Source of the DNA: an uncultured bacterium
GTDB lineage: Bacteria > Armatimonadota > UBA5829 > DSUL01
Assembly (NCBI GenBank): GCA_937967775.1
Contig: CALCJH010000364.1
Location: forward strand, 1-20,286
Direction of reading: 5' to 3'
Length of the DNA stretch: 20,286 nt
Below, piece by piece: positions 135-20,286 of this stretch (position 1 is its first letter; each line of letters begins with the position of its first letter). A program made the translations under genes and the position numbers. The notes beneath the pieces are model-generated. The model was not told the origin of the DNA and searched no databases. It was given only the letters and a program-made list of their open reading frames with translations.

Positions 135-163
135 TTGACAGCGGCGGAGGAGGGGAATATACT
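135..163 (+). promoter_or_regulatory. Sigma-70-type promoter of the imuB operon
   Basis: TTGACA at 135-140 and TATACT at 158-163 are 17 bp apart. This is a perfect -35, a -10 with one mismatch to TATAAT, and ideal spacing. The start of transcription should be near 170, giving a leader of about 64 bases before the ATG at 234. Such a strong promoter in front of mutagenic polymerases makes sense only if it is repressed, and a LexA-type palindrome lies immediately downstream. Confidence 0.8.
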
Positions 164-176
164 GTGCGTGAGAAAA

Positions 177-190
177 CGAACATATGTTCT
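177..190 (+). promoter_or_regulatory. LexA (SOS) operator
   Basis: The site reads CGAACATATGTTCT. Its core GAACATATGTTC (178-189) is a perfect 12-bp palindrome. It matches the LexA box of Bacillus and actinobacteria (CGAAC-N4-GTTCG) at all but the last base. It sits about +7 to +20 from the predicted transcription start, so bound LexA would block the promoter at 135-163. The downstream genes are classic SOS genes, which supports the call. Confidence 0.85.
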
Positions 191-233
191 CATATCTCGC
201 CGGGCGCCCTCCGGCGCCGAAAAGGTTCGAACA

Positions 234-1397: not shown

Positions 1398-1405
1398 AGA
1401 GGGTT

Positions 1406-1471
1406 GGGGGATTTGAGGGGTGAAAGTTGAAACACGGTCGCTTTCAGACTCAACTTTCGATCCTCGCCCCC
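1406..1471. repeat. Long imperfect stem-loop between imuB and the DUF6504-like gene
   Basis: The inner stem is a perfect 9-bp match, GAAAGTTGA (1422-1430) with TCAACTTTC (1450-1458). It extends through GAGG (1415-1418) with CCTC (1462-1465) and GGGGG (1406-1410) with CCCCC (1467-1471), with small mismatches between. The loop is 1431-1449. It fills most of the 103-base gap. There is no T-run, so it does not look like a terminator. It could be a dispersed palindromic repeat or an mRNA processing or stability element. Confidence 0.6.
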
Positions 1472-1500
1472 TGACTCTCGGCCCTTGCTGCCACCCTGTC

Positions 1501-1782
1501 ATGGCGCGCCGGATGCTGGTGGAAGTCACTGTGGAATGCGGCCCAGGTGGGGCGCCTGTCGGGTTCATCTGGAATGGCAGGCGCTACCGCGGACTCCGGA
1601 TGGTGGAAAGCTGGCGGGAATCCGGCTGTTGGTGGGATGGAGATCCGGTCCGGACGGTGTTCCGCGTTCAGGATCCCGGCGGCCGGGTGTTAGAACTGCA
1701 CCGTCTCGGGGCATCGCTTTTTCCGCTGGAGGGCACAGGGCAGCAGGCGGGCAGGTGGCTGCTCTACCGGATAGAGGACTAG
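1501..1782 (+). CDS. DUF6504-like small protein of the SOS operon
   Basis: A 93-residue soluble protein without signal peptide. The pattern FIWNGRRYRGLRMVESW, then a WW pair (GCWWDGDPVRTVFRV), then an aromatic end WLLYRIED, resembles DUF6504. As I recall, that family occurs next to or fused with ImuB/DnaE2 in actinobacteria and relatives. The function is unknown; the position suggests an accessory part of the mutasome. The start is uncertain. ATG 1501 has no clear ribosome site, ATG 1513 is close behind, and a GTG at 1420 would add 27 residues encoded by the stem-loop and look unnatural. The stop at 1780-1782 is 20 bases before the dnaE2 start, so the two are surely co-transcribed. Confidence 0.65.
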   Translation: MARRMLVEVTVECGPGGAPVGFIWNGRRYRGLRMVESWRESGCWWDGDPVRTVFRVQDPGGRVLELHRLGASLFPLEGTGQQAGRWLLYRIED

Positions 1783-1802
1783 CGAGGGAGGCGGCCGCGA
1801 AG

Positions 1803-4800: not shown

Positions 4801-4952
4801 TCATTGTGGAGGGAAGGCTTCAGAAGCGGGGGCTGGGGCATTCCATCCTGGCGGAGCGTGTTCGGCCGGTTCCGAGGACGCTGTCTCCGGAGCGCGCCGT
4901 GGCCAAAGCGCTGCAGCTGCCCGAGCCGCGCATCAACGCCTCGGCCCGGTAG
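1803..4952 (+). CDS. dnaE2: Error-prone DNA polymerase III alpha subunit DnaE2
   Basis: C-family polymerase for damage-induced mutagenic synthesis. The 1049 residues match the usual DnaE2 length. In order: PHP domain (HLHVHSAFSFLDG near residue 4, ALTDHDNLSG, LSGCRRGE, ATGNVHHL near 200); polymerase core with GRGSVVDS and the catalytic PDIDVDFP (about 388-395); HFDKDD; GIIIFQEQ; the DnaE2-type NNQPMGFYPPNTL; a helix-hairpin-helix (FDSLHPNRRALL); and a C-terminal OB domain (FFCLEDEFGLVDV). One PHP metal ligand is changed: N200 where Asp is usual. The start is GTG 1803, just ahead of the PHP motif, with AGGGAGG at 1785-1791. The open frame upstream of it overlaps the small gene in another phase and is not coding. 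Controlled from the SOS promoter at 135. Confidence 0.93.
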   Translation: MFVHLHVHSAFSFLDGCSYPEELVERAAELGYRALALTDHDNLSGVIRFVRACRETGIKPVPGVELTVMDDRGGAAGDAERFHVTLLAATREGYANICRLVTLGYEHGGRRTPAVPRHLLGEHSAGIIALSGCRRGEVLRRLAQGRREEARRAAVWHREVFADGYFLEMQRLLLPGEMRLLRALEDLGRELDIPLAATGNVHHLRRGDLPAHDILTCVRTLTRVDEPHPERPFNAEKYLAEPEEMRRRFAEWPQARDAAERIAELCSGGVPDLSRPRLPRPALVEGDAREFLRTLVFRGARERYGALTEKVRQRLEHELSIIGRLGCEPYFLTVRDIVREARSRGIRTSGRGSVVDSAVGYCLGISDIDPIAADLPFERFMSVERSQMPDIDVDFPRERRDELVRWVQERYGCDHVAGVCTFQTFRARSALREIGRAMGLPEDEIGLLAKRLRGARADEVAEAMERQPQVVHQPTPAKRYRRLFEMCARVAGLPRMISTHLAGIVIADIPLLNYTPLQPTAKGVVRIAHFDKDDIEAIALKTDLLSLPVLGAVDQAREVCPYESIPDGDEETFRTIRCGEAVGAFELQSPAQRALHTRVRTDSKKDIIDSIALIRPGPGMGGMTENYIRRRLGLEPVTYIHPSLEEPLRHTYGIIIFQEQVIEVACAAANFTPGEADILRKMITHARSQQAMERLRATFLEKALANGLSEEQAERVFRCIAGFAGYGFAEGHARAFGEIAYRSSYLLTHHPAHYFAGLLNNQPMGFYPPNTLAAQARIRGVRILPVDINRSHSRTASTDDSVRLGFHLVKGLSKSLKEVIQSQAPFADIYDFCRRCRPSVRELESLIMAGAFDSLHPNRRALLWQTEMAAQAGRRRENAIQGTLLDVWPDPPDLPDFTETQLLSLEYAATGITANCHLISLLRPKFDAMRLLTTNDMLWIPGGQRVRVGGLTICPHTPPTRSGRQVLFFCLEDEFGLVDVTCFEDVFRSSGYLAFSEPLLIVEGRLQKRGLGHSILAERVRPVPRTLSPERAVAKALQLPEPRINASAR

Positions 4953-6323: not shown

Positions 6324-9300
6324 TCACGGTTGGAAGCGGATCAGGGCAAATCGCTCCGGCGGGATGGTGATCTCCAGCACGTTATTGGTCAGCGGGATGT
6401 TCGTGTTCGTGAGCATATTGCGGACGGAGGGGTTGGGGAACCCTTTCCAGCGCAGACGCACCGTCGAGGGGGATCCTCCATTGAAAGTTCTGAGGTTGGA
6501 GATCACCAGAAGCACCCGACCATTGCGCTCCCACGTGGCGAATACGTCTTCCCGACCCGGCGTGGAGACCCACTCGAAGAAGGGATTCTCCCTCCAGCAG
6601 GGAACGAAGTTCGCTCGACGGACCCCGAAGCCCCGCAGCACGCTGTAAATCTGCTTGACCACCGTCTGGTTCATGTTCACGAGCCACGCCTGAGGCACTC
6701 CGTGCGGCAGGGCCCACGCGAAGGACATCCACGTCTGCTTCTCGTCCGGGGGAGGGTCGCCCGCCTCGGTCAGCAGTCCATTGAATAGGTAATTGGGCAC
6801 GCCGAACGCCGTGGAAAGACACCGCGCCCGAAACAGATCCAGCCCCCAGCACTGAGCGTAGCTTGCCGACGTGTTGCCGTAAAGGCAGCCATAGGGCTGC
6901 TCGCCAGTCAACCACTCGGTGGCGAAGCCGATGATCGGCGGAACGAACTCCCATGTGTGCACCCAGAAGTGATAGCGCGGGAAGCCCGGCCGCTCCGGAG
7001 CATCGAGAGGGGGTGTGAAGGGGCTAGTGACTGTGTCCTCCATCATAATGGCGAACCGTTTCATCGCCTCCCGGCTCGCAAGCACCGGCACTGTCGGGTG
7101 GGTAACTCCGTTGTCGTCCACCCACCCGCAGCCGTGATGCGTGTTGCGGCAGTGGAACTGCGCGCCCAGCCAGCCGTCGAAGTAAAATCCGTCCAGCGAA
7201 TAAGTCTGCATGACGTTTCGCCACGTGTGGGTCAGGAAATCCACGTAGCTCGTGGCCGCAGCGCAGTCCGCATACTGCGGGATGCCATCCCAGGTGAGCA
7301 CATCTTCCGGTAGCCTCTGCCACTCGTGGAAGAAATCGTTGAAAGGCGTCATCGGCGGAGAGATCTTCTGAGGACAGGAAGCCGGCCCCACGGCGGCGAC
7401 GCCCCGCTCGTGATACATCTGCACGCGCTGATTGAGGACTGCCGCGTTGAGGTGCTCCGGATCGTTGAGCCCCTGCATGATGTCCGTATTCCAGATGACC
7501 ATCATGTCCACATTGCCCGGCATCGCGAGCCATGCCAGACTGGAGGGCCACGCGAAAGCCCGGTCCGCCACCATCGAGTGGTAGTCCGGCGGCAGAGGCT
7601 TGACGGGCGTGGCCTGAATGCCGAACTCGTAGTGCAGACCGTGGGCCGCCGCCGGGGATTCGATCAGGTTCATCCGATAAGCCGAAGCGGGCGAGCCCGG
7701 GAGCAGGGTGCAGAAGTTCGACAGGCTGGTCGGCTTCCAGTTCTCAAGTGAAGAGTAGGTAAATCCGATGCCGCGGTCCTCGTTTCCGAACCAGTGGTAG
7801 AAGTTCGCCACCCACTCGTTGACCAGCCAGCCCAGCGGAAGCGGTGACGCGCCGATGGCTCCCGCGCCTTCGGCTCCCGGGCGGAAGGTCTGGAAGAGGC
7901 GAATCTGGGACGTTCGCAGAGGCGCCTCGACTCGCAGCCAGCTGAATGTGACATTCCGCGCCGGGTTCCTCAGATCCAACTCGAACCAGACGAAGCCGTC
8001 GAAGTCGGCCGTAATGCGCGCGACGGCCTCCACGTCGCAGATGTCGCCCACGGCTTCCGCCACCGCCCGGGCCGGCGTGCTGGAGAGAAACCGAAAGCTC
8101 TTCAGCCGGAAAGGATGCGTCTCGGCGCCGATGCCTGCCACCAGTTTCATCGGCGCTGACAAAAGCTCTTCCCCGGAGCTAACAATGCTGTCCGGGAAAA
8201 TGCTCGACCCCCAGGTCATAGTCCGGCCCCAGACTCCGATCTGCTTTTCCCCGACCACCACCGGCGTCCATGGTTTCACAACGCGGTCCGGGTCCTTCCC
8301 CGTCCGGGACAGGATCCAGGGCGGATCCTCCAGATGGTTGAAAGCTGCCTGTCCCTGAGCCAGAAGGGATCCCGCCCGGTAGGCGGACGCCCGAATGATG
8401 TATTGGCCCCGGGGAAGCCCTGCGTAGTCAATGCGCACGTCCTTCGGCTGGTTCGCCTGCATGGGAGCCTCCCGGCGAAGAACCACAGAGTTGCCCTGGT
8501 CCAGCACCTCCAGCGTGCAAGAGATGGGTCCGGTCCCGAGCCCCTGCGGCTGGAGCCGGGCAATCAGATACTTGCGCGAAGGAACATTCAAAGCCCGCAC
8601 GGTCAGCCACGCCGTTCCCGACAGGATCTCGAAGGACAGGCGATCCACCTGAATGAAGTCCGCAGGCAGCCGGCAGCGCTCCGCTGTCCACTCCAGGCTC
8701 TGCAGCTGGGTCCAGGAGCTGTTGGTCAGGGTGCCGCTCCCCGAGTCTTTGCGCCAGCCCGTCCACGGATCGCTGGTCGTCGTTGCGCCGGCGATGTCCA
8801 TGTCCACCACGTAGAGCGTCAGCGTTGAGGGGCCGGCCGTGAACATCAACAGATTCCGATACACGCTGCCATTCGGGAACCGGGCCCGGATCGTGACGGG
8901 TGAGATGCCGGAGGAGCCTTCTCCATTGGCTTCAGCGCGTAAGAAGAACCGCAGAGAGCTCCCCGCTCCGGCTTCAGGAAGACCGAAGGAGCGCTGAAGC
9001 TTCAGCCCTCCGCCGTTGACTCCCTGCCAGCCGTTGGCCTGCACCGCGTTTCCGGCCCAGGCGTCAATCTTCGGCACAGACAGGGTGGGGTTGCCGGTCG
9101 GAAGAGCCGACCAGCCCGCCGCAGCAGCCTGATCCGCGGTCTCGAACTCCGTCCAGGCGTCCGGTGTCTCGGGGAACATCTGAGCGCCGACGTTTGAAGC
9201 CAGGACAAGAACGGCCAGCAAAGCGGCCAACGGTGCTGGGACCTGCGCTGGTGATTGCTCGCAGGAGGGTAAAAACGAGCGCCAGATGGACCTCCTTCCT

Positions 9301-9326
9301 CTGTGAGTCCGGCAGCTTCGCGGCAT
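6324..9326 (-). CDS. Secreted protein resembling DUF6067 / GH123-like glycoside hydrolases
   Basis: Large exported protein, probably acting on polysaccharide or glycan outside the cytoplasm. Of its 1000 residues, about 48 form a signal peptide with an arginine-rich start, hydrophobic core and cleavage near SNVGA-QMF. Beta-sandwich-like segments follow to about residue 330. Next comes a region like the DUF6067 core (NEWVANFYHWFGNEDRGIGF; then a barrel-like part with DGFYFDGWLG at 712-721, where D712 and D717 are candidate active-site acids). A beta-rich end follows (RVLLVISNLRTF). The ATG at 9326 has GGGAG 8 bases upstream. A very strong AGGAAGGAGGT lies inside the reading frame (9290-9300) with no ATG or GTG after it. 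The family call rests on pattern memory; the substrate is unknown. It is transcribed toward the PEP-CTERM gene. Confidence 0.6.
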   Translation of the reverse strand: MPRSCRTHRGRRSIWRSFLPSCEQSPAQVPAPLAALLAVLVLASNVGAQMFPETPDAWTEFETADQAAAAGWSALPTGNPTLSVPKIDAWAGNAVQANGWQGVNGGGLKLQRSFGLPEAGAGSSLRFFLRAEANGEGSSGISPVTIRARFPNGSVYRNLLMFTAGPSTLTLYVVDMDIAGATTTSDPWTGWRKDSGSGTLTNSSWTQLQSLEWTAERCRLPADFIQVDRLSFEILSGTAWLTVRALNVPSRKYLIARLQPQGLGTGPISCTLEVLDQGNSVVLRREAPMQANQPKDVRIDYAGLPRGQYIIRASAYRAGSLLAQGQAAFNHLEDPPWILSRTGKDPDRVVKPWTPVVVGEKQIGVWGRTMTWGSSIFPDSIVSSGEELLSAPMKLVAGIGAETHPFRLKSFRFLSSTPARAVAEAVGDICDVEAVARITADFDGFVWFELDLRNPARNVTFSWLRVEAPLRTSQIRLFQTFRPGAEGAGAIGASPLPLGWLVNEWVANFYHWFGNEDRGIGFTYSSLENWKPTSLSNFCTLLPGSPASAYRMNLIESPAAAHGLHYEFGIQATPVKPLPPDYHSMVADRAFAWPSSLAWLAMPGNVDMMVIWNTDIMQGLNDPEHLNAAVLNQRVQMYHERGVAAVGPASCPQKISPPMTPFNDFFHEWQRLPEDVLTWDGIPQYADCAAATSYVDFLTHTWRNVMQTYSLDGFYFDGWLGAQFHCRNTHHGCGWVDDNGVTHPTVPVLASREAMKRFAIMMEDTVTSPFTPPLDAPERPGFPRYHFWVHTWEFVPPIIGFATEWLTGEQPYGCLYGNTSASYAQCWGLDLFRARCLSTAFGVPNYLFNGLLTEAGDPPPDEKQTWMSFAWALPHGVPQAWLVNMNQTVVKQIYSVLRGFGVRRANFVPCWRENPFFEWVSTPGREDVFATWERNGRVLLVISNLRTFNGGSPSTVRLRWKGFPNPSVRNMLTNTNIPLTNNVLEITIPPERFALIRFQP

Positions 9327-9693: not shown

Positions 9694-10896
9694 ATGCGCT
9701 TAATCTGGCGAGTGCCTGGTCTGATTGCGCTGGCCCTGATGATGCTCCAGCCTGTGGCTCCCGCACTGGCCGACGGGCCCTATGAGCTGCTTGTTGTCAG
9801 CGCAAACAACAGGGTGCTTCGTTTCGACCCGGACGGGCGGTATCTGGGCGTTTTCACGGCGGATCCCGGCCTGATCGGGCCAGTAGGGATCGCTGTCGGG
9901 CCTGACGGGAAAGTCTACGTCAGCGCGGAGAGCTCCGGGCGGGCGTCGGTTCGGCGATACTCCAGCGACGGCACATTCGAGCGCGAGTACTACGAGTTTT
10001 CCCTGACCCGGCCGTTCGGGGTCGCCCTGGATTCTGCAAACAACCTCTATGTCAGCAGTTACAACGGCGATGAGGTCGTCCGCTGGCTCGCGAGCGGAGC
10101 CTACGACGGCACATTTGCCTCGAGCGGCGGAATGGAAGGTCCTGCCGGCATCTGCTTCGACGCTCAGGGACGCCTCTATGTCGCCTGCGATATGTATGGG
10201 CAGGACCCGCCTGTGAAGGGGCGCGTACTGATCTTCGGTCCCACCGGCGCTTATCAGAGCCAGATCGTGATGGACAATCTGTATGTCTATCCCAGCGACG
10301 TGGCGGTGGACCCGGCGGGCGATGTCTATGTACTGGTGACGGTCGGCAAGCCCAACAACGCTGTCATTCGCTACGGGCCAGACGGCGCATACAAAGCGTT
10401 CTACACATTTCCCGCCATCAATGCGCCCGTAGGGATCGCCCTGCATCCCGAAACAAGTCAGGTCTACGTGACGGGTGAGGAAGGAGTCTATCGTTGGGAC
10501 CAGACGATGGGCCAGCAACTAGTGGTAGCCAGCGGTCAGTCCGGTTTGTCACGCCCGATGGATATCGCTTTCCGCCCACTTCAGCCGGCCGCCGGCAACA
10601 CCATCACTTATCAGGGCAAACTGACCAATCTGCAGGGGCAGGCCGTCGCGGACGGGACCTACACTGTCGCGGTGCGGTTTTACCAGGAGGAGTCCGGAGG
10701 CACGGCTCTCTGGGAGTCTCCTTCCGTCGGCGTGCAGGTTAAGCAAGGCCTGTTCACGGTCAGGTTCTCGAAGGTTCCTGCGGATGTCTTCTACGCGCGC
10801 AATGTCTGGATGGAGACAGTGGTCAACGGAGAAACCGTTGTCCCGCGCCGATACATCGGATCGGTGTCTCTGGCCATCCGCGCACCGGGGAGTTGA
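9694..10896 (+). CDS. Exported NHL-type beta-propeller protein with C-terminal NYQG-type domain
   Basis: A 400-residue exported protein of unknown ligand, first gene of a three-gene operon. The signal peptide ends near APALA-DGP. A propeller of NHL-like blades follows (NNRVLRFDPDGRYLGVF, GKVYVSAES, NNLYVSSYNGDEVVRW, GRLYVACD, GDVYVLVT). From residue 302 (NTITYQGKLTNLQG) comes a domain of about 99 residues with DGTYTVAVRFY, a GG.ALW motif, GLFTV and PRRYIGSVSLAIRA. That domain is frequent at the end of secreted proteins in Armatimonadota and other phyla and has no known function. The ATG at 9694 follows a strong AGGAGGAGAGGAG. It has no PEP-CTERM tail and no S74 domain. The next gene follows after 66 bases. 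Confidence 0.8.
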   Translation: MRLIWRVPGLIALALMMLQPVAPALADGPYELLVVSANNRVLRFDPDGRYLGVFTADPGLIGPVGIAVGPDGKVYVSAESSGRASVRRYSSDGTFEREYYEFSLTRPFGVALDSANNLYVSSYNGDEVVRWLASGAYDGTFASSGGMEGPAGICFDAQGRLYVACDMYGQDPPVKGRVLIFGPTGAYQSQIVMDNLYVYPSDVAVDPAGDVYVLVTVGKPNNAVIRYGPDGAYKAFYTFPAINAPVGIALHPETSQVYVTGEEGVYRWDQTMGQQLVVASGQSGLSRPMDIAFRPLQPAAGNTITYQGKLTNLQGQAVADGTYTVAVRFYQEESGGTALWESPSVGVQVKQGLFTVRFSKVPADVFYARNVWMETVVNGETVVPRRYIGSVSLAIRAPGS

Positions 10897-10918
10897 GTTT
10901 GAGCGGAGATCACAGTGA

Positions 10919-10934
10919 CCGGCCGGATGGCCGG
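10919..10934 (+). repeat. Hairpin between the first two genes of the operon
   Basis: CCGGCC (10919-10924) and GGCCGG (10929-10934) form a perfect 6-bp stem with a GGAT loop, without a T-run. It lies between the stop at 10896 and the ATG at 10963 and may stabilise the upstream mRNA end. Confidence 0.45.
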
Positions 10935-10962
10935 GGAAGGTTACGGGAAGGAGAAACAGAAA

Positions 10963-12174
10963 ATGCGGGATCGGAAGCAAACGCAGTTTCTGCTGATTAT
11001 CGCGGCGCTTGTGATGGCCGCAGCCATCTTCGCCGGGTCGCCGGCGGCGGCGGATTACCTTGTCCTGAGCTTCGGCACGGACCGGGTGCTCAGATTCGGA
11101 GATGACGGAACTTACAAAGGGGTCTTTGCGGGCCCGGACCAGAACATCACGAAGCCGACCGCCATAGCCCGAAGATCCGACGGCAAGATCTATGTGGCCT
11201 GCTACGTAACTCAGATCACAAGCTACATTGTGAGACTGAGTGAAAAGGGTGAATATGAGGCCCATGTCGGCACCGGTGACTACGGCTTTATAGGCGGACT
11301 CATCTTCGATCAGGCGGGTAACCTATATATTAGCGATTCCAGCGCCTGGTGGGTGAACAAGCTCACCCCGGATGGTGTGCAGACGGTGCTCAACTCAGGT
11401 TCGGAGACCACTCCGTCCCCGGCTGGCATGGCCTTCGACGCCCAGGGCAGGCTGTATCTGGCGTGCGGCGGCGCCAACGGAAAGATCCTTCGCTGGAATG
11501 CGGACGGGAGCTTCGACCGCAAACTCCTGGACAATCCAAGGCTCGTGGACGTGGCCATCGTAACGCTGGACGGCGGGGCGCAGGCCGTTCGCGCCCTGCG
11601 TGCGGATGGCTCCACATCCGGCTACTACCTGGGGTGGGATATTGAAGGCAACTGGACCGGTCCCTACGTAACGACGGAAAGCTCTCCCGAGTGGGTCAAC
11701 AGCCTGTGGCAGATAGACGCTACAAAGTTCTTGATCGTCGGCTACAACGGAATTTACCGCTACGAGCTGACGGATCAGGGACCGGTGAAGACCCTCTGGA
11801 CGGGTCTGATCCCGGGCCTCCTCAGTAGCCCTTATGGCATCGTCTGGGTGCCGGATGAAGTAGGTTCGGCGAATTCTCTAAACTACCAGGGAAGGCTGGC
11901 GGACAGCTCGGGCAACCCGGTGCCGGATGGTCAGCATACTCTGGTCTTCGCGTTCTTCGCTACGGAGACCGGTGGAGATCCCCTCTGGACTTCTGCGCCG
12001 GTCAGCGCGACCACGAGCGGGGGCCTGTTCACCACCACCATTCCCGGAGTGCCGCCTGCGGTCTTTGATGCGAAGGATGTCTGGCTCCAGGTGACCGTGA
12101 ACGGCGAAACCCTCTCGCCGCGGATCTACGTGAGCTCGGTGCCGCTTGCCATGAAGGCGCTCAGGGCGCTCTGA
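10963..12174 (+). CDS. Exported NHL-type beta-propeller protein with C-terminal NYQG-type domain
   Basis: A 403-residue exported protein, second gene of the operon. The signal peptide has a basic start (MRDRKQTQ), hydrophobic core and cleavage near SPAAA-DYL. The propeller shows DRVLRFGDDGTYKGVFAG, GKIYVACY, GNLYISDS and GRLYLACG blades. From residue 304 (NSLNYQGRLADSSG) comes the same C-terminal domain as its neighbour, with GG.PLW, GLFTTTIPGVP and PRIYVSSVPLAMKA. The propeller is closest to the minus-strand PEP-CTERM protein at 5148-6089, not to its operon neighbours, and even keeps TSGYYLGWDIEGNWTGPYV. The start is ATG 10963 with AAGGAG 9 bases upstream; the GTG at 10915 would add a charged stretch before the signal peptide. 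Confidence 0.8.
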   Translation: MRDRKQTQFLLIIAALVMAAAIFAGSPAAADYLVLSFGTDRVLRFGDDGTYKGVFAGPDQNITKPTAIARRSDGKIYVACYVTQITSYIVRLSEKGEYEAHVGTGDYGFIGGLIFDQAGNLYISDSSAWWVNKLTPDGVQTVLNSGSETTPSPAGMAFDAQGRLYLACGGANGKILRWNADGSFDRKLLDNPRLVDVAIVTLDGGAQAVRALRADGSTSGYYLGWDIEGNWTGPYVTTESSPEWVNSLWQIDATKFLIVGYNGIYRYELTDQGPVKTLWTGLIPGLLSSPYGIVWVPDEVGSANSLNYQGRLADSSGNPVPDGQHTLVFAFFATETGGDPLWTSAPVSATTSGGLFTTTIPGVPPAVFDAKDVWLQVTVNGETLSPRIYVSSVPLAMKALRAL

Positions 12175-12195
12175 GAGGGGAAAGGAGGAGCCACT

Positions 12196-13071
12196 ATGCC
12201 TGTCGGCAAAGCATTGCAGTCTTTAGCCGTCTGTCTGGCAGTCAGTTGCCTGACGGCAGCTTCCCTTTCTGCAGGGCAGTTCGCAATTGACTGGGCGGTG
12301 TTGAGCGGAGGAGGCGGCGAGATGTCCTCGGCCTCCTACCGTCTGAACGGTACGCTCGGGCAGGGGTTTGCCGGCTATGCCTCCAGCGCATCATACCGGC
12401 ACTGGGTCGGATTCTGGGTCGAGCCGGGCAGCATTGCGCCTCCCCAGCCCGTGATCGTTCAGAATCTGGAGCAGGCCAAGGTGTTGGCGGACGGCACACC
12501 TGTCGTGGTACCTCGCCTGGTCGCGACCACCACCGCGGGGGATTTCGGCAGCAGCACGCTGGCCTACCTGGAGCAGGAGGACAGGGCGGCCGGCATCCGT
12601 GTTGCGCTGGCATCTCCTGTCGAATGGCTCGGCGAGGGAGCGCGGGTCAGTGTGACGGGAGTGATGTCCACCACGCCCGATCAGGAGCGCCAGATCGCTT
12701 CAGCCTCATTGATTCTGCTGACACCCGGAGCGCCGCTCGAACCGCTGCGCATGACCAACCGGGCGCTCGGCGGCGGGGATCTCGGCGTTCCTCCGCTGGG
12801 TCAGATCGGAGTCACGGGAGGCTACGGCGTGAACACCGTGGGCCTCCTGGTCGTGGTCTGGGGGACGGTGGTCAATGATCCGTCAGCGGGCTTTACCCTG
12901 CTGGACGACGGGTCCGGCACACCGGTCCGGGTCGAGACGGGTCATCTGGCCGTCCTCTGGTCTCAGGGAGACTACCTGAAGGTGACCGGACTCAGCAGCC
13001 TTCGCAAGAACGGCGACATCTTGGAGCGGCTCATCATTCCAAGGTCGAACGCAGACATATCGGGACTCTAA
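12196..13071 (+). CDS. Exported protein with two OB-like segments
   Basis: A 291-residue exported protein of unknown function, last gene of the first propeller operon. The signal peptide ends near AASLSA-GQF. A short motif follows (SSASYRLNGTLGQ ... SASYRHWVGFW). Then come two OB-like segments: about 85-195 (DGTPVVVPRLVATTT ... GIRV ... GARVSVTGVMST) and about 205-291 (VNTVGLLVVVWGTVV ... LLDDGSGTPVRV ... GDYLKVTGLSS ... LIIPRSNADI). It is a paralogue of 16650-17495, which ends the second operon. A strong AAAGGAGGAG (12181-12190) precedes the ATG, 21 bases after the previous stop. OB-like is judged from pattern only. Confidence 0.7.
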   Translation: MPVGKALQSLAVCLAVSCLTAASLSAGQFAIDWAVLSGGGGEMSSASYRLNGTLGQGFAGYASSASYRHWVGFWVEPGSIAPPQPVIVQNLEQAKVLADGTPVVVPRLVATTTAGDFGSSTLAYLEQEDRAAGIRVALASPVEWLGEGARVSVTGVMSTTPDQERQIASASLILLTPGAPLEPLRMTNRALGGGDLGVPPLGQIGVTGGYGVNTVGLLVVVWGTVVNDPSAGFTLLDDGSGTPVRVETGHLAVLWSQGDYLKVTGLSSLRKNGDILERLIIPRSNADISGL

Positions 13072-13092
13072 GGGAGCCTGCCCGCATCACCG

Positions 13093-13141
13093 ATATCTGC
13101 AGAGGGCTCGTCAGGCACGGCGGGCCCTTTCCTGCAGATGT
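13093..13141 (+). terminator. Terminator with nested inverted repeat after the first propeller operon
   Basis: The inner stem (13103-13112 with 13119-13128) has 10 pairs, two of them G-U, around a 6-base loop, followed by TTTCC. Outside it, ATCTGCAG (13095-13102) pairs with CTGCAGAT (13132-13139), and one or two further pairs can form. The inner hairpin alone is a good terminator 31 bases after the stop at 13071. Confidence 0.7.
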
Positions 13142-13177
13142 CCTCTGCACGTCAGACGGTCGTGTTTTTGCGGGAAA

Positions 13178-13233
13178 GCATGCTCAATCCGATTCTCCCG
13201 TCCTGAGAGAGTGCGGTATCCTCGAAATAGAGG
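13178..13233 (+). promoter_or_regulatory. Candidate promoter of the second propeller operon
   Basis: GTGCGGTATC (13211-13220) is identical to 9551-9560, with the upstream pieces AAAGCATG, AATC and ATTC also conserved. TATCCT (13217-13222) could be a -10 and TTCTCC (13193-13198) a -35, 18 bp apart. The leader would be about 70 bases. A small hairpin, CGGCGC (13241-13246) with GCGCCG (13252-13257), follows in the leader. Confidence 0.5.
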
Positions 13234-13297
13234 GGATTCTCGGCGCCCAAAGCGCCGGGAGATCGAGTCTTTCTGGAATGCCACCGCGGAGACTGAT

Positions 13298-14980
13298 ATG
13301 CGAGCGCTCTTGATCTTTCTTGCAACTGGCATACTTTGCCTGTCAATCCACCTGCCCGTGACGGCCCAGAACCTTCTGGTGAACAGCTCTGGCGGCGACC
13401 AGACCCTGCGCTTCGACCTTTACGGCATCTATCAGGGAGTCTTCGCGACGAGTCAGGGACTGGATGATCCCTCCAGCCTGTGTGTGGCCCCGGATGGCAC
13501 TACTTTCATCGGGATGCGCGACGCTCAGGGGCAGGGAAAGGTGCAAAAGCGGTCGGCCGCGGGTTCGCTCCAGGCGGAGTATTCCATTCCGGGCCTGTCC
13601 AGTGTCGGCGGGGTCGTGCTGGACGCGGCCGGAAATCTGTATGTCAGCGACAGCGCTGCCAACCGGGTTCTGCGATGGGATGCCTCGGGAAACTTTCAGG
13701 GCGTCTTTGCATCTGGGAACGGGCTCAGCCGCCCACTTGGCCTGTCCTTGGATGGCGAAAGAGGGTTGCTCGTTGCTTCTGCGGACTCCGGAGAGATTCT
13801 CAGGTGGAACGCGGGCGGCTCTTTCGACAGGGTGTTTGCGTCGGTGGCCTCGCCTGTGGATGTGGAGTGCGGCTCGGATGGCAGGGTCTACGTGCTGCAC
13901 GGAGGCGCGGGCGGAGGAGGGGTTCTGGAGTTGCACCCGGACGGGTCCGTCCGGTGCGCAAGGATTGGCGGGGTGAGTCTGGCATCTCCCACCGGTCTGG
14001 CTCTTCGGCCGGGTGACGAGGCGCTTTTCGCTACGGACGCGCAGAAGGGTGTTCTGTTCTGGGATGACACGGGTGGATGGCACGTGCTGGTCCCGAATGG
14101 GCAAAGCGGACTGAACGCCGCAAGGGGACTGGCCTTCCAGACCGCTGCCGTGCTGTCCCGGAACACCATCAACTATCAGGGCCTTCTCACGGATTCCACC
14201 GGCGCTCCCCTGCCGGACGGGCAGTACGCAGTGGCCTTCGCACTTTACTCTTCCGAGTCTGGCGGGCAGCCTCTCTGGGTCTCCGCTCCTCAGACGGTCA
14301 CGACCAACGCCGGGGTTTTCACCACGCTCATAGCGGGGGTGCCCGAGACTGTTTTCGAGGTTCCTGAAGTCTGGGTCGAGGTGCGCGCCGGGTCTGTCGT
14401 CATGTCTCCGCGCCAGCGGTTTTCCGCTGTGCCCTACGCATTCCATTCCCGCTACGCATCTTCGCTGGCCACGGAAGGCGCTCCCCTCATCTGTTCCATC
14501 GGAAATGTCACCGCGCTTCGCCTGGGCTCGGACTCCAGCTTCTGGGCGCGGGCAAGCGGCGGAGCCACATTTGTTACCGGCTTCGACGCGAACGGCCTGC
14601 CGGCCTCCGGCGTCATGCTGGCCCCGGGCAGCGGCGCGTGGTCCACGCTTAGCGACCGGGCGGCGAAATTGGGCTTTCAAAGAGCGGATCCGGAGGAGAT
14701 CCTGCGCAAAGTCCGGGAGCTGCCCGTGGGCTACTGGAGCTACAGAACGCAGGACCCGGGCATCCGGCACATCGGTCCGACTGCTCAGGATTTCCGGTCG
14801 GCATTCGGGCTGGGCGAGGATGACAAGCATATTAGCACGGTGGACGCGGATGGCGTGATTCTGGCGGCGATTCAGGGTCTGCTTCGCCGGGTGGAGGAGA
14901 ACGACTCCCGCATTCGGGATCTGGAGCGGCGCCTTGCGGGGCGGCCCGATGCGCCTGAAAGGGAGGCGGAGGACCGCTGA
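13298..14980 (+). CDS. Exported NHL-type propeller with NYQG-type and S74 chaperone domains
   Basis: A 560-residue exported protein, first gene of the second three-gene operon. The signal peptide ends near PVTA-QNL. A propeller follows (QTLRFDLYGIYQGVFA, GNLYVSDSAANRVLRW), then the NYQG-type domain from residue 289, a linker with FVTGFDANG, and a C-terminal S74-type intramolecular chaperone domain. In the last, S452-D453 and K457 (LSDRAAK) match the Ser-Lys pair used for self-cleavage, H491 lies in RHIGP, and ISTVDADGVILAAIQGL leads into a coiled coil. In phage tail spikes this domain assembles trimers and then cuts itself off. The start is ATG 13298 with GGAGA 5 bases upstream; the frame continues back to the promoter motif but is not coding there. 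The TGA overlaps the next ATG. Confidence 0.85.
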   Translation: MRALLIFLATGILCLSIHLPVTAQNLLVNSSGGDQTLRFDLYGIYQGVFATSQGLDDPSSLCVAPDGTTFIGMRDAQGQGKVQKRSAAGSLQAEYSIPGLSSVGGVVLDAAGNLYVSDSAANRVLRWDASGNFQGVFASGNGLSRPLGLSLDGERGLLVASADSGEILRWNAGGSFDRVFASVASPVDVECGSDGRVYVLHGGAGGGGVLELHPDGSVRCARIGGVSLASPTGLALRPGDEALFATDAQKGVLFWDDTGGWHVLVPNGQSGLNAARGLAFQTAAVLSRNTINYQGLLTDSTGAPLPDGQYAVAFALYSSESGGQPLWVSAPQTVTTNAGVFTTLIAGVPETVFEVPEVWVEVRAGSVVMSPRQRFSAVPYAFHSRYASSLATEGAPLICSIGNVTALRLGSDSSFWARASGGATFVTGFDANGLPASGVMLAPGSGAWSTLSDRAAKLGFQRADPEEILRKVRELPVGYWSYRTQDPGIRHIGPTAQDFRSAFGLGEDDKHISTVDADGVILAAIQGLLRRVEENDSRIRDLERRLAGRPDAPEREAEDR

Positions 14981-16653
14981 TGGCCGGGCGGGTTCTGGCA
15001 GCGTCCATCATCCTGCTGTCCACCTGCCTGATCCCGGTGCCGGGTCAGGAGCTGCTGGTCGCCAGTCGGGGCAGCAACAGCATTCTGGTGTTCGATGCCG
15101 AAGGCAACTATGCTGGAGTGTTTGCCTCGGGAGCGCTCGCGCCTGCTCCCTCCTGTCTGGCGGTCGGCTCGGACGGGAGCGTTTATGCCGGAGTGCGGGA
15201 GCCATCGGGACTGCGGGGGGTAGTCTGCTGGGAGGGCGGAGGCGCATACCGTTTCCGGTTGACGGCTGCGGGGCTGAGCGACCTGACCGGTCTAGCTGTG
15301 GACGCGTCCGGGAGCGTCTGCGCGAGCTCTACCGGTGAAGTAGTCCGCTGGAATCCAGACCGGTCGTTCTTCGGCACTTTCTCTTACGGAAGCGGCTTGG
15401 CAGAACCTGCTGGTCTTGTCTTTTCGGCGGATGGCAAGCTCTTCATTGCCAGCGCCGGCAGCGGGCAGGTGCTGGTATGGAACCGGGATGGTACCCTCGA
15501 TCGCGTGTTCCGGTCTTTCGGGGCAAGCGCCCGGCCCCTGGACGTCGCCCTGGCCGGGGACGGGAGCGTCTATGTCTTGCTACGCCTGAGTACAGGGCAG
15601 ACCGGGGTGGGGGTTTACAGCTCGGCCGGATCATTTGTCCGTTTCCACTCCGGCGGGGCCGTGATGCCCTCGCCGACAGGGCTTGCCCTGCGTCCCGGGG
15701 ACGATGCGGTATTTGTGAGCGACTCCATTTCCGGTCTGTTGCGGCTGGGTGCTGACGGCGTGTTCCGTGTTGTGGCGCCCGCAGGCGCTCACGGCCTGTC
15801 CCAGGCTTCGGCGGTGCGATTCCTGCCTGACCGCCACGCTTCGCACAACTCGCTGGTCCTTCAGGGTGTGCTGGCGGCGCAGGAGGGCGTTCCGATTGCG
15901 GATGGAGTGTATCAGATCAGGTTCCGCTTCTACGCTCAGTCCTCCGGAGGTAGTGCGCTCTGGTCCTCTCCGACTCTGCCTGTCGAGACCCGGTCGGGAG
16001 TCTTTACGGCGCGGCTGGAGCAGGTTCCCGCAGGTCTGTTTGCACGCGATTCCCTCTGGCTGGAAACGCTCCTGGGAAGTGTGGCTCTCACCCCCCGGCA
16101 GCTGCTGGGCTCCCAGGGTCTGGCCATCCGATCCGTCTCGGCTTCCGGCCTTCGCGCGGCATCCGGTGGAGCGGCCGTGTTCCGGGTGGGAGCCCGTCAG
16201 GCGCTCACGTTGACCGCCGACGGGTCGTTTACGGCTCTTGCGCCCGGCGGGGCGCTTTTCGCCACGGCTTTCGACGCCGGAGGCCAACCCTCGATGGGTC
16301 CCCGGTTGGCCCCGGGTGCGGGTGCGTGGTCCACGCTTTCAGATGCCTCGCTCAAAGTGTGGCACGGAGCCGCCGATCCTGAGGACATCCTTTCTCGGCT
16401 ACAATCCCTTCCTGTCTTCTTCTGGAGATACCGTGCCCAGAGGACAGGGGCTCTCCATCTCGGTCCAATGGCGGATGACTTTTGCAGGATGTTCGGGCTG
16501 GGTGAGATGCCTGGCGCGATCTCCACAGTTGATGCCGACGGCGTGGCGATGGCGGCGGTGCAGGGCTTGCTGCGAAGGATCGAGCAACAGGAACAGACCA
16601 TCCGGCGCCTTGAGGAGCTGATCAACCGCACGCAGGGGAAGGAACTGCGATGA
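14980..16653 (+). CDS. Exported NHL-type propeller with NYQG-type and S74 chaperone domains
   Basis: A 557-residue exported protein and tandem paralogue of the preceding gene. The signal peptide ends near IPVPG-QEL. The propeller starts with NSILVFDAEGNYAGVFASG. The NYQG-type domain starts at residue 290, where the usual NYQG has drifted to NSLVLQG. The S74-type domain has S454-D455 and K459 (LSDASLK), H493 (LHLGP) and ISTVDADGVAMAAVQGL, ending in a coiled coil (IEQQEQTIRRLEEL). All residues expected for self-cleavage are present. The start ATG shares its A with the previous TGA, and GGAGGA at 14968-14973 serves it, so translation is coupled. Its own TGA overlaps the next ATG by 4 bases. Confidence 0.85.
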   Translation: MAGRVLAASIILLSTCLIPVPGQELLVASRGSNSILVFDAEGNYAGVFASGALAPAPSCLAVGSDGSVYAGVREPSGLRGVVCWEGGGAYRFRLTAAGLSDLTGLAVDASGSVCASSTGEVVRWNPDRSFFGTFSYGSGLAEPAGLVFSADGKLFIASAGSGQVLVWNRDGTLDRVFRSFGASARPLDVALAGDGSVYVLLRLSTGQTGVGVYSSAGSFVRFHSGGAVMPSPTGLALRPGDDAVFVSDSISGLLRLGADGVFRVVAPAGAHGLSQASAVRFLPDRHASHNSLVLQGVLAAQEGVPIADGVYQIRFRFYAQSSGGSALWSSPTLPVETRSGVFTARLEQVPAGLFARDSLWLETLLGSVALTPRQLLGSQGLAIRSVSASGLRAASGGAAVFRVGARQALTLTADGSFTALAPGGALFATAFDAGGQPSMGPRLAPGAGAWSTLSDASLKVWHGAADPEDILSRLQSLPVFFWRYRAQRTGALHLGPMADDFCRMFGLGEMPGAISTVDADGVAMAAVQGLLRRIEQQEQTIRRLEELINRTQGKELR

Positions 16654-17495
16654 GAACCCTTCTAACAGCAGCCTTGCTGATGGTCGCGATACCAGTTCCC
16701 TGCTGTGCTCAAGGAGTCACTCTGCAGCGGCTGGTGCTTCCTGCTCTGGCGGGTGGTGCATCCGCTTCTGATGTTGATCTGCAGGCCACCGGGGGGCAGC
16801 CTGTGGCGGGGCGGGTTCAGGCCACTGGCGTGCGGCACTGGATCGGCTTCTGGCTTCCAGGAGCCACCGGGGAACCACCCATATTGCCGGATAGTCTTGC
16901 CCTCGCGAAGCTGCTACCGGACGGAGCCCGAGTCTCGCTGACCGGCCTTGTCGCCACAACCGGTCAGCTGCAACCCGGCGGATTCTTCTATGTCAGCCGG
17001 CCGGACCGGGCCAGTGGCATCAGGCTCCTGCCGCTCAGCGACGCAAAGAGCATCGTCCCTGGCACTGTGCTGTCCGTCATCGGGACTATGGACACCACAC
17101 CTGATGGGGAGCGGCAGATCTCTGCCGCATTGCTTTCGGTGCACGGGTTCCGAGATCCTCTTGAACCGCTTGCGATAGCAGGCCGGTATCTGGGCGGCGG
17201 GGCCTTCGGGAACGCTCCCTGGTTCCAGCCGGGAGCCGACGTTGCGGCGGGGGTGAACAACGTCGGACTCTTCGCCCGCACCTGGGGAACAGTAACGGGG
17301 TGGGAAGAGCGAATACTGACCCTGGAAGATCCTTCAGGAGTGCCCGTCGCAGTGATGTTGGATAATGCCCCGGCGGACCCTGCTCCGGGTTCTCTTCTGG
17401 AAGTCTTGGGCCCGGTCAGCCTTTATCGCGCCGGGCAGCAAGTACGGGCTCTGTTGATTCCACGCTCTCCCACAGATCTGCGCCAGCTGAACTAG
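16650..17495 (+). CDS. Exported protein with two OB-like segments
   Basis: A 281-residue exported protein of unknown function, last gene of the second propeller operon and paralogue of 12196-13071. The signal peptide ends near PCCAQ-GVT; the cysteine pair is near the cleavage site but does not form a clear lipobox. The N-terminal segment keeps VRHWIGFW. Two OB-like segments follow: about 75-170 (DGARVSLTGLVATTG ... FFYVSRPDRASGIRL ... GTVLSVIGTMDTTPDGERQI) and about 190-281 (VNNVGLFARTWGTVTG ... LTLEDPSGVPVAV ... GSLLEVLGPVSL ... LIPRSPTDL). ATGA overlap with the previous gene shows coupling. Its TAG stop lies in a CTAG shared with the convergent symporter gene. Confidence 0.7.
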   Translation: MRTLLTAALLMVAIPVPCCAQGVTLQRLVLPALAGGASASDVDLQATGGQPVAGRVQATGVRHWIGFWLPGATGEPPILPDSLALAKLLPDGARVSLTGLVATTGQLQPGGFFYVSRPDRASGIRLLPLSDAKSIVPGTVLSVIGTMDTTPDGERQISAALLSVHGFRDPLEPLAIAGRYLGGGAFGNAPWFQPGADVAAGVNNVGLFARTWGTVTGWEERILTLEDPSGVPVAVMLDNAPADPAPGSLLEVLGPVSLYRAGQQVRALLIPRSPTDLRQLN

Positions 17496-19534
17496 GCCCG
17501 GTCCGGCTTTCCCGCGTCCGTAGTGGCAGTGACTGTGGCCGGTATGCCTTCGGCCGGGGAGGATTCCGGCGTCGTGACAATCGCCTCCCGGACCATCCCA
17601 TCATCGCTCGCATCCCTGGGAAGGGTCTTCAACGTCTGGAAGAGACGCCGGATGTCCAGCACTCCTCCTATGGTGAACCAGACGATTGCGGGAATGCTGA
17701 TGGCCAGCTTCAGTCGGATGTCGAACCACCAGTATTTGAGCCACACGGCATCGCTCAGAGGATGGATGATGTTGATGAAGCTGAAGACCAGGAACCACAT
17801 GAAGTAGAGCCCGTGGTAGGCCACCAGCGCGACCGCAAGGATGCGGTCCGTACGGTTGAACTCCGGGGTGATGCCCGTGATCTTGAGCCAGAGGCTTTTT
17901 GGCGCCTCATAGACCTCGCGCTCATCGCCGGGGAGACGGTACGGCCCCCTATGCAACATCTTCTCAAGGTTGAAGGGAGGCTTGCCCCGGCCTGTGACAA
18001 GGGAGATTCCCACATAGACGGCGATCGCGCTCAGCATCGCGATGAACCACAACACCTGCCCATTTATGGGAAATGGTCGGCCGTAATGGGCCTGCCAGAA
18101 CTGCGGCACAACAAGTCCGGCCACACCCAGCACTGCCCCCACGGTCAGCGCGCAGTAGGCTCCAGCCGTGGTTCCCCGCCGCCAGTAGAGCCCCCCGATT
18201 ATGACTGCGCCCGAGCCTCCCAGCCATATGGTTCCGGTGATGGCGAAGAAAAAGAGGATCTTCTGCCCCATCGGATACCAGAGGCTGAACAGAAAAGCGA
18301 ACACCGCCACCCCGATGACCGATGCCCGCAGCAGGCGTATGTGCTGTTCCGGCGTAAGCTGCTTCTTGCGTAGGGGCATCACAACGTCCTGGATGAAGAT
18401 GCTGCCCCAGGAGTGCAGATAGGTGTCGTGGGTGGTGAAGGACACGAATAGCATCGTAGCCGCCAACAACCCCTTGATCCCGATTGGCAGAATCTGAGCC
18501 ATCGCCAGTGGGACCCGCATCTGCCCTTGCACGTACTCGTTGGGGATCGTTTTCAGACTCTGGTTGACGGCCTCCGCCTGCGCAGCGAACTCCGGCAGCT
18601 TCATGATCGCGACAGCCGCCAGTGGCATCATCAGCATCACCAGCGCCTGCGGGATCCACCTCCATACCGCGATGATCCCGCCCATTTTGTGCTCATGCGG
18701 GGATTTCGCCGAACTGAAGAACCCTTGAGACCCCTGCCAGGACATATAGCCGTAGAAGCTCCCGAAGACCGCGATTGCGAAATAGAAAAAGTTGAAGTCC
18801 TCCACCTGGCTGGTCTTGAACGGGTGGATCATGGAAGCCTTTTCAGGGGCCATGGCCAGGGCCTGGGCCATCTGGTCCCAGCTTACCAGCAGGACCAGAC
18901 TCGCGGAAACCACCACAAATGCGATGGCGCAGAAGATCCCCTGCACGCAGTCCGTCACCATCACCGAGACCTGACCGCCCATCGTCACGAACGATACCGA
19001 AAGCCCCAGGTCGAAGAGCATCAGGGCGGGGAAGGTCGGGATCTGAAACGGTAGCCCTGGGAGAGAAAACGCCTCCGGCAGGCCGCAGAAGTACATTATG
19101 AAGCGGGCGGATACTGCCGGAAATATTCCGAAGTTCAGGATCCCTGAAATCCAGCACAGGATGCCTGCGAACACTCGGAAGTTGCGGGAATACCGCATCT
19201 CGAAGAACTGCGCCATCGTCATCGCGCGCGTCTCGCGGAAGCGGTAGTAGACCCAGCCTGTCAGCAGGATGATAACGCCGCCCGGGATGCTCATCAACTC
19301 CCACCACTTGGGAGGGAGTCCGGCGGAGTAGATCATCTCGAACGCCCCGACGAAGGTGACGACCCCCACGCCTCCCATCTGGGTGGCGATAGTAAGCAGG
19401 TAGCGTCCTGCCGAGCGGTTGGCCGACAGGAAATCCGCCACCCCCTGCATGTAGCGCTTCGTGCTCAGGCTGAAGATCCGGAGCGCGATAATCGCAAGGA
19501 TCACGATGCCCCAGTCGAGAAGGCTGAGATTCAC
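17492..19534 (-). CDS. Sodium:solute symporter (SSS family)
   Basis: Inner-membrane sodium-coupled uptake carrier of 680 residues; the substrate cannot be told. The chain is strongly hydrophobic with about 13-15 membrane helices. It shows SSS hallmarks: an unwound first helix region (TIATQMGGVGVVTFVGAFEM), RFRETRAMTMAQFFEMRYSR, SWQGSQGFF, and the helix with FVSFTTHDTYLHSWGSIFIQD, where the usual sodium-site serine/threonine pair falls. The hydrophilic C-terminal end is longer than in minimal family members. The start is a GTG at 19534 with AGGAG 10 bases upstream. A receiver/AraC regulator gene lies 49 bases upstream on the same strand, so the two are likely co-transcribed. Its TAG stop is read from the same CTAG as the convergent gene's. 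Confidence 0.85.
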   Translation of the reverse strand: MNLSLLDWGIVILAIIALRIFSLSTKRYMQGVADFLSANRSAGRYLLTIATQMGGVGVVTFVGAFEMIYSAGLPPKWWELMSIPGGVIILLTGWVYYRFRETRAMTMAQFFEMRYSRNFRVFAGILCWISGILNFGIFPAVSARFIMYFCGLPEAFSLPGLPFQIPTFPALMLFDLGLSVSFVTMGGQVSVMVTDCVQGIFCAIAFVVVSASLVLLVSWDQMAQALAMAPEKASMIHPFKTSQVEDFNFFYFAIAVFGSFYGYMSWQGSQGFFSSAKSPHEHKMGGIIAVWRWIPQALVMLMMPLAAVAIMKLPEFAAQAEAVNQSLKTIPNEYVQGQMRVPLAMAQILPIGIKGLLAATMLFVSFTTHDTYLHSWGSIFIQDVVMPLRKKQLTPEQHIRLLRASVIGVAVFAFLFSLWYPMGQKILFFFAITGTIWLGGSGAVIIGGLYWRRGTTAGAYCALTVGAVLGVAGLVVPQFWQAHYGRPFPINGQVLWFIAMLSAIAVYVGISLVTGRGKPPFNLEKMLHRGPYRLPGDEREVYEAPKSLWLKITGITPEFNRTDRILAVALVAYHGLYFMWFLVFSFINIIHPLSDAVWLKYWWFDIRLKLAISIPAIVWFTIGGVLDIRRLFQTLKTLPRDASDDGMVREAIVTTPESSPAEGIPATVTATTDAGKPDRA

Positions 19535-19583
19535 CCCTGCGATGCTCCTGCGAAGATCTGGAAGTGAGAGGTGTTCAGTGGTC

Positions 19584-20286
19584 TCACGGCGCGGAAAGCC
19601 TTGTGTTACGATACTGGCCCGGCCTCATGCCGGTGACCTCCAGGAAAACCTGGCTGAAATAGTTCTCGTCTTCGAAGCCCACGCGCTGCGCTATTTCCGA
19701 AAGGTTCAGGGATGGGTCGCGCATCAGCTCCTTGGCTTTTGCCACCCGCACCATGCGGAGATACGTCCGGAACGAAACTCCGCAGACCGCCTTGAAAAGC
19801 GGCCCCAGATAGCTGGCGCTCAGACGGACCTGGTCTGCGGCGGTCTGCAGGGATATGTCCTCGTGATAGTGAGAGTCCACGTAGCGGCGCACCGCCTGGG
19901 CGATCTGATAGCTGCGTGTTTTGGCACGATGGGCTGCAGCCGGGGATGTCTGGAACGGGGGCTGCCCGATGAGCCGTTCCAGAACCTGGCGCTCCCGCTC
20001 GTGAATCCGAATGCACCTGAGAATGCCGACGGCCTTTTGAAGAGCCTGGTCCAGCTCGTCTGCAGCCAGCGGCTTCGCGAGCAGGTCGACGGCGCCCAGC
20101 CGGACGGCCAGACGCGCGTGCTCGAACGCGGGGCTGGAGGCGGTGCAGATAAACAACGGATCCCTGTCCAGCAGCCCCTGGAGCTGACGACCCAGGGGGG
20201 CATCGGTGAGCGAAGGCATTTTAAGGTCCAGGACCACGATGTCGGGCTGGAGGCGCAGCGAAAGATCTATCGCGTCTGTGGCAGCC
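19584..20286 (-). CDS. Response regulator with receiver and AraC-type DNA-binding domains (5' end outside window)
   Basis: Cytoplasmic two-component regulator of the YesN type. The visible 233 residues begin inside the receiver domain: PDIVVLDLKMP carries the phospho-acceptor Asp (codon 20226-20228), CTASSP the conserved Thr/Ser, and LLAKPL the conserved Lys. A linker leads to a C-terminal AraC domain with two helix-turn-helix motifs (ISLQTAADQVRLSASYLGPLFK; LNLSEIAQRVGFEDENYFSQVF). The frame is open to the window edge, so the true start and probably a partner sensor kinase lie to the right. The internal GTG at 20237 would cut the receiver domain and is not the start. It probably controls the symporter gene 49 bases downstream. 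Confidence 0.88.
   Translation of the reverse strand, partial: AATDAIDLSLRLQPDIVVLDLKMPSLTDAPLGRQLQGLLDRDPLFICTASSPAFEHARLAVRLGAVDLLAKPLAADELDQALQKAVGILRCIRIHERERQVLERLIGQPPFQTSPAAAHRAKTRSYQIAQAVRRYVDSHYHEDISLQTAADQVRLSASYLGPLFKAVCGVSFRTYLRMVRVAKAKELMRDPSLNLSEIAQRVGFEDENYFSQVFLEVTGMRPGQYRNTRLSAP

Follow-up and report, generated by a model that had tools for sequence, protein, structure and literature searches.

A contig from an uncultured Armatimonadota bacterium (lineage UBA5829; DSUL01; GenBank assembly GCA_937967775.1, contig CALCJH010000364.1) carries at positions 9694–17495 six plus-strand genes in which the order propeller protein, propeller protein, OB protein occurs twice. The window analysed in this study is that whole contig (G000:C364; 20,286 nucleotides), which comes from a fragmented, 69% complete assembly. 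All four propellers are followed by a domain of ~100 amino acids, which we named YQG for its start, and both OB proteins begin with a domain of ~50 amino acids, GFW (GGG..GFW); genes encoding the two domains are neighbours in five phyla. The reading that suits the double operon best is a propeller-headed form of surface fibres of the mosaic adhesive trimer (MAT)/S74 type together with their partner proteins, and we give an about even chance to a model in which two paralogous operons build a surface assembly where YQG docks the head onto a surface-held GFW partner. The GFW protein is a candidate for the missing surface partner of such fibres; if the model is true, the small GFW domain would gain a role and a propeller would have been grafted onto a fibre-docking domain.

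Architecture and conservation of the double operon

The six genes lie where the original prediction had placed a duplicated module of two propellers and an OB-like protein. The first operon comprises A1 (9694–10896), with a signal-like N-terminus, an NHL propeller (about 9775–10578) and YQG (about 10579–10884) but no S74 domain; A2 (10963–12174), with an NHL-type propeller (about 11053–11862) and YQG (about 11857–12162); and A3 (12196–13071), the proposed dock and anchor for A1 and A2, with GFW at about 12268–12429 and OB folds at about 12442–12729 and 12745–13068. In the second operon, the NHL propellers of B1 (13298–14980) and B2 (14980–16653) are followed by YQG (about 14156–14461 and 15829–16137, respectively) and then by an S74 chaperone domain in B1 (about 14504–14977) and an S74-like end in B2 (about 16165–16650). 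B3 (16650–17495), a paralogue of A3 that aligns with it over the whole length, has a divergent GFW (about 16707–16871) ahead of its OB pair (about 16878–17492). Against an NHL cut-off of 20 bits, A1 (43.2), B1 (20.1) and B2 (22.1) score above and A2 (19.2) just under; the propeller of B1, the one compared with solved propeller structures, resembles Pizza and PknD.

Q, G, W and P columns are invariant in an alignment of 35 YQG members, and 32 of these members match Bdello_MAT_N (NF053851), the N-terminal domain of MAT fibres, at E ≤0.1 (best 1.2e-9); with a broad YQG set, 17 of 35 do so at E ≤0.01. All the Bdello_MAT_N matches with bits given score under the NCBIfam cut-off of 60, and among PDB sequences nothing matched YQG better than E 0.51. 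Of the S74 domains that had been predicted for the second operon, the one in B1 stands above the Pfam cut-off (PF13884, 29.5 bits versus 22) and carries SDRAAK (14651–14668); the end of B2 falls below it (15.5 bits), although SDASLK (16339–16356) and ISTVDADGV are present. We propose that A1, A2, B1 and B2 would be exported and act as propeller heads, each fused to a relative of the MAT fibre base domain, and that in B1 and B2 the trailing S74 chaperone would trimerise the chain and then cut itself off, a self-cleavage that should occur if the SDxxxK motif is a guide. The propellers themselves may bind a ligand such as a glycan.

GFW was recognised in none of 10 GFW proteins scanned with Pfam and had no match among PDB sequences at E 1 or better. 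A structure model of A3 predicts two OB folds, which structural fold matches support; its GFW part is of low confidence (10-residue means of about 43–59) and informs neither way on docking. We considered A3 as a nucleic-acid binder and rejected it, the fold matches indicating OB only; DNA or RNA binding by the OB protein is unlikely because its N-terminus is signal-like. The N-termini of the module products and of GFW proteins were judged signal-like by eye.

In a genome of the same genus (G001, a single contig of 3,289,812 bases), the neighbouring propeller gene P0, a GH123_N-like gene, A1, A2, A3, B1, B2, B3, a symporter and a regulator gene follow the order of the window at 79–95% identity. 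In a second genus of the family (G003), the locus is split over two contigs, with the break falling inside A3, and a contig of G002 ends inside A1. The three products thus form a conserved set, as had been suggested. When B1 was used as query in a database search, 7,996 candidates were scored and 15 proteins covered at least 92% of it (P0013–P0027, the window's own included), the next covering 60%; this search was not exhaustive, because the window's A1 and A2 went unlisted. Across 61 genomes (its own and 60 relatives), the B1 propeller part and YQG occurred together in this family only. A first search of genome contigs with A3 alone as query gave no relative.

Of the four propeller proteins with YQG, B1 and B2 are the most alike by BLAST (43%); a propeller tree with long outgroup branches leaves the placement of A1, B1 and B2 open, and a YQG tree weakly joins A1 with B2 (84/93). 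BLAST, the propeller tree and the YQG tree do not converge on block duplication of one three-gene unit. P0 (5148–6089, minus strand) is firmly placed with A2: the two propellers share 41% identity and group in the tree with support of 100/100. P0 ends in a PEP-CTERM signal (23.3 bits versus a cut-off of 20.7) at the place where A2 has YQG, and exosortase genes are found in all four family genomes. From related propellers with different ends we deduce that YQG occupies the place of an attachment signal.

Between P0 and A1 lies a gene (6324–9326) for a 1000-amino-acid protein with a GH123_N match of 39 bits (cut-off 22), and a GH123_N-like gene sits there also in G001, G002 and G003. Downstream, on the minus strand at 17492–20285, a sodium:solute symporter family (SSF) gene and an AraC-type response regulator gene are kept in G001 and G003; these surroundings are possibly a sugar-use neighbourhood. 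Such neighbours, together with matches of the propellers to the Vgb_lyase and SGL families (A1 exceeds the Vgb_lyase cut-off), would suit a glycan-use locus in which lactonase- or lyase-like, or binding, propellers act with the GH123_N-like protein, the symporter and the regulator. We regard this as quite improbable: these neighbours have no match at a second YQG–GFW locus of G001 (L067), and YQG, S74 and GFW are not known to be parts of enzymes.

At the upstream end of the window (135–4952) are a Y-family polymerase gene (ImuB-like), a small open reading frame (1420–1782) and a gene for a large polymerase, DnaE2-like by eye, which resemble what we take to be an SOS mutasome cassette; these polymerase genes had no match in the examined stretch of G001 (L062).

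Pairing of YQG and GFW in the phylum

Pairing was followed in 28 genomes of the class, where a YQG gene within 4 kilobases counts as paired, and in 201 genomes of the phylum chosen by neither S74 nor GFW. The class yielded 18 GFW places in 11 of the 28 genomes, gathered among the listed full-length matches to A3 and doubling as rows of the GFW model; 14 have a YQG gene within reach. The main locus contributes six of these, from three genomes, and at the others the neighbours are propeller-less YQG proteins (the second locus of G001, G003:C58, two loci of G017, and G018, G019, G027 and G024). In the phylum sample, 21 of 29 GFW places are paired under a broad GFW model and 24 of 34 under a narrower one. 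All 20 genomes with GFW fall among the 29 with YQG (P 5.6e-21, with no correction for phylogeny).

Outside the class, the narrow GFW profile gave weak matches only (E 6.5e-6 to 5.8e-4). The broad profile lifts the places in another family of the phylum (f8) to between 7e-11 and 2e-13, and we kept these places because their E-values were strengthened in this way. There, 10 of 12 GFW places stand behind a YQG gene, and in place of OB the GFW protein carries a dockerin-like tail (one scanned; 19.8 bits versus a cut-off of 22.9).

The original prediction defined the set by propeller and OB. That definition does not survive: YQG–GFW pairs recur without propellers and, elsewhere, without OB. In the genome to which the window belongs, the OB pair has 27 matches, of which two lie in the window; of 25 places outside the module, 18 carriers were examined and in 16 of them the pair ends within 20 amino acids of the stop, the two exceptions being one at a contig edge and one whose frame is broken by a stop. 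Of 10 carriers scanned, five had Pfam matches at ≤0.001, including the purple acid phosphatase N-terminal domain, Amidase_3, BNR and NHL. OB pairs thus stand mostly outside the module, as C-terminal parts, a point against the earlier view; in its favour, the order of the module is kept in other genomes. We rejected OB as the defining partner because it is a common C-terminal module and because GFW proteins of other phyla have other tails. If the docking model holds, the OB pair would act in this Armatimonadota lineage as a C-terminal module for surface retention; its place at the extreme C-terminus of many proteins may mean that it serves sorting or retention in a lineage-specific way. GFW–OB proteins of about 280 amino acids that stand alone form a coherent family of 70 proteins, and KatS3mg024_0167 from an Armatimonadota bacterium is 85% identical to A3.

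Two arrangements of the class may be recorded here. A 490-amino-acid frame, C10-type peptidase-like by eye, lies between the YQG and GFW–OB genes of G018 (L102, 2229–6560). In G006 (L115, 3006–7989; L107, 3392–6198), two YQG genes precede an OB protein in which the GFW motif is degenerate or sits within a 1025-amino-acid frame.

Pairing and tails in other phyla

Eighty named loci, from 538 listed relatives collected through the S74 end, were assigned to phyla by record title, and 29 of them contain GFW open reading frames (ORFs). GFW follows 18 of 38 complete S74 genes with YQG and 3 of 31 without it (Fisher P 0.0013), a count that omits, of 92 genes, 6 with less than 600 nucleotides downstream and 17 cut at the 5′ end (6 of the 17 with GFW). 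All 33 GFW ORFs lie within 1.2 kilobases of a YQG or S74 ORF, against a mean of 13.7 and a maximum of 22 for random ORFs. YQG–GFW neighbours were found in Chloroflexota, Verrucomicrobiota, Planctomycetota (L205 and L230) and Proteobacteria (L212, where GFW is divergent and upstream), making five phyla with Armatimonadota. At a Sumerlaeota record (L211), GFW stands behind a contig-cut S74 gene whose YQG region would lie outside the contig, and at a Parabeggiatoa record (L203) it comes after an S74 gene with no YQG match. In some Chloroflexota and Verrucomicrobiota loci, YQG and GFW genes alternate or repeat (L193, 4032–8731; L178, 2–11235; L164, 946–4758), which suggests repeated duplication of the pair.

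Whole genomes behind the named loci, 34 in number, were searched for GFW, and those with GFW also for YQG, so that YQG counts are lower bounds. GFW occurs at 89 places in 25 of the genomes. At least 76 of the 89, in 24 of the 25 genomes, have YQG within 4.5 kilobases, where 1.2 would be expected from YQG density, and 75 of the 76 pairs share a strand. Removing the 25 places through which the genomes had been selected (22 of them paired) leaves at least 54 of 64 paired, in 20 genomes.

Several observations weigh against the docking model. In the class, the pair of G024 lies on divergent strands, and 4 of the 18 GFW places, which amount to three independent loci (G003:C162, G022:C12 and the G010/G012 orthologues), are unpaired; 8 of the 29 phylum places have no YQG neighbour, and 9 of the 29 phylum genomes with YQG, including G006 and G020 of the same class, gave no GFW match. 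Of the locus-derived genomes, 9 of 34 have no GFW match; 13 of the 89 GFW places are unpaired among the matches listed (at L196, one of them, GFW does adjoin a gene for a 2025-amino-acid YQG protein, and at L172, another, the S74 gene is contig-cut), and 65 of 150 listed YQG places have no GFW nearby. The broad GFW model (A8) was built mostly from paired GFWs and at 1e-5 misses 5 of the 34 narrow-profile places, namely two in G094 and the three of B3 type (B3 itself in G000, with its orthologues in G001 and G003); B3 was found by a GFW profile labelled A2, a profile name distinct from protein A2. For anchoring to the surface through the OB pair, moreover, the argument is one of position.

The YQG places that lack GFW, and the GFW–OB genes alone at three class loci, are what one would expect if YQG and GFW were generic domains of exported proteins that share common operons and are co-regulated without contact. 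We consider such a reading unlikely, given that pairing persists across several phyla despite different fibre bodies and tails and that genomes with GFW are a subset of those with YQG in the phylum sample. A different reading, to which we assign a similarly small share, makes GFW an assembly factor or a tip or base cap, chaperone-like, for YQG proteins, with the OB pair binding glycan or wall outside the assembly. In 58 of 76 pairs the fibre gene comes first and the GFW gene after it, where genes for fibre chaperones are commonly found, and many GFW frames are small (about 85–200 amino acids), but 17 of the 75 same-strand pairs have the opposite order, and GFW proteins have signal-like N-termini and lineage-typical tails that are absent from the fibres.

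These tails differ by lineage. In Armatimonadota-lineage loci, an OB tail is found on 15 of 16 GFW proteins and on none of 31 YQG proteins; in Chloroflexota loci, an LPL[VI]-like tail on 9 of 15 GFW and 0 of 27 YQG/S74 proteins; and in Verrucomicrobiota loci, an FYR[LI]-like tail on 11 of 11 GFW and 0 of 21 YQG proteins. Both patterns were chosen after viewing the sequences, and they occur on 2 of 162 and 1 of 133 other long ORFs of the Chloroflexota and Verrucomicrobiota loci, respectively. Exported proteins of these two phyla often bear tails of this kind. Taken with the exchange of ends between P0 and A2, the lineage-specific tails lead us to place YQG and its GFW partner on the attachment side.

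In the docking model, A3 and B3 would be read as dedicated partners whose GFW domain receives YQG and whose OB pair may keep them on the cell surface; elsewhere, in different lineages and phyla, the YQG–GFW pair would bear different fibre bodies and tails. Direct binding of YQG to GFW is what the recurrent pairing leads us to infer. As a wider and tentative proposal, which we hold plausible but short of even, GFW could be the general docking partner of MAT_N/YQG-type fibres across bacteria, in a two-gene adhesin chassis whose YQG plug would accept any head (fibre, S74 spike or propeller) and whose GFW socket would accept any lineage-specific anchor (OB pair, dockerin-like, LPLV-like or FYRL-like). 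The surface assembly that had been proposed for the module gains from the signal-like N-termini, which suggest export, and from the S74 and MAT-like domains, which are parts of surface fibres; the surface location itself we infer.

Relation to described systems

The original prediction knew of no described system with this make-up, which was too strong, since YQG and the S74 chaperone are both of the described MAT and tail-fibre kind. A search of titles and abstract starts in PubMed Central (open licences) listed no paper on PamT, a GFW partner or a propeller-headed MAT. PamT, a pilus protein of the candidate phyla radiation (CPR) type (NF058579), has an N-terminal part that matches 45 of the 70 GFW–OB proteins at E ≤0.1 (best 9e-8) and, among GFW proteins from other lineages, 2 of 10 at ≤0.01; the likeness is confined to that part, and A3 reaches 18.8 bits against a cut-off of 240. 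With NHL proteins of the ScyD, ScyE and ScyF type, the module shares a propeller likeness (NF033206 and NF035926), but all matches to these models fall under their cut-offs and the best stretches are confined to the propeller part. Tail fibres and spikes with an S74 chaperone (PF13884) have in common with B1 and B2 the SDxxxK motif, and differ in that the proteins here are propeller-headed; no phage gene was among the Pfam and NCBIfam matches of the window, phage libraries not having been searched.

The closest likeness is to the MAT fibres. The report on Bdellovibrio describes 21 such fibres, in which a conserved, beta-rich domain of ~130 amino acids directly follows the signal peptide and has no structural homologue in the PDB, and states that the surface partner of this N-terminal domain awaits identification (Caulton et al. 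2024, PMC10769870). YQG is related to that domain and, in most relatives beyond the family studied here, is found close to the beginning of the frame; in the window, by contrast, it comes after the propeller. B1 and B2 share with MAT fibres the S74 end with SDxxxK and would, we suggest, likewise form trimers, whereas A1 and A2 have neither fibre nor S74 and end right after YQG. The module differs further in that a gene for a GFW partner follows.

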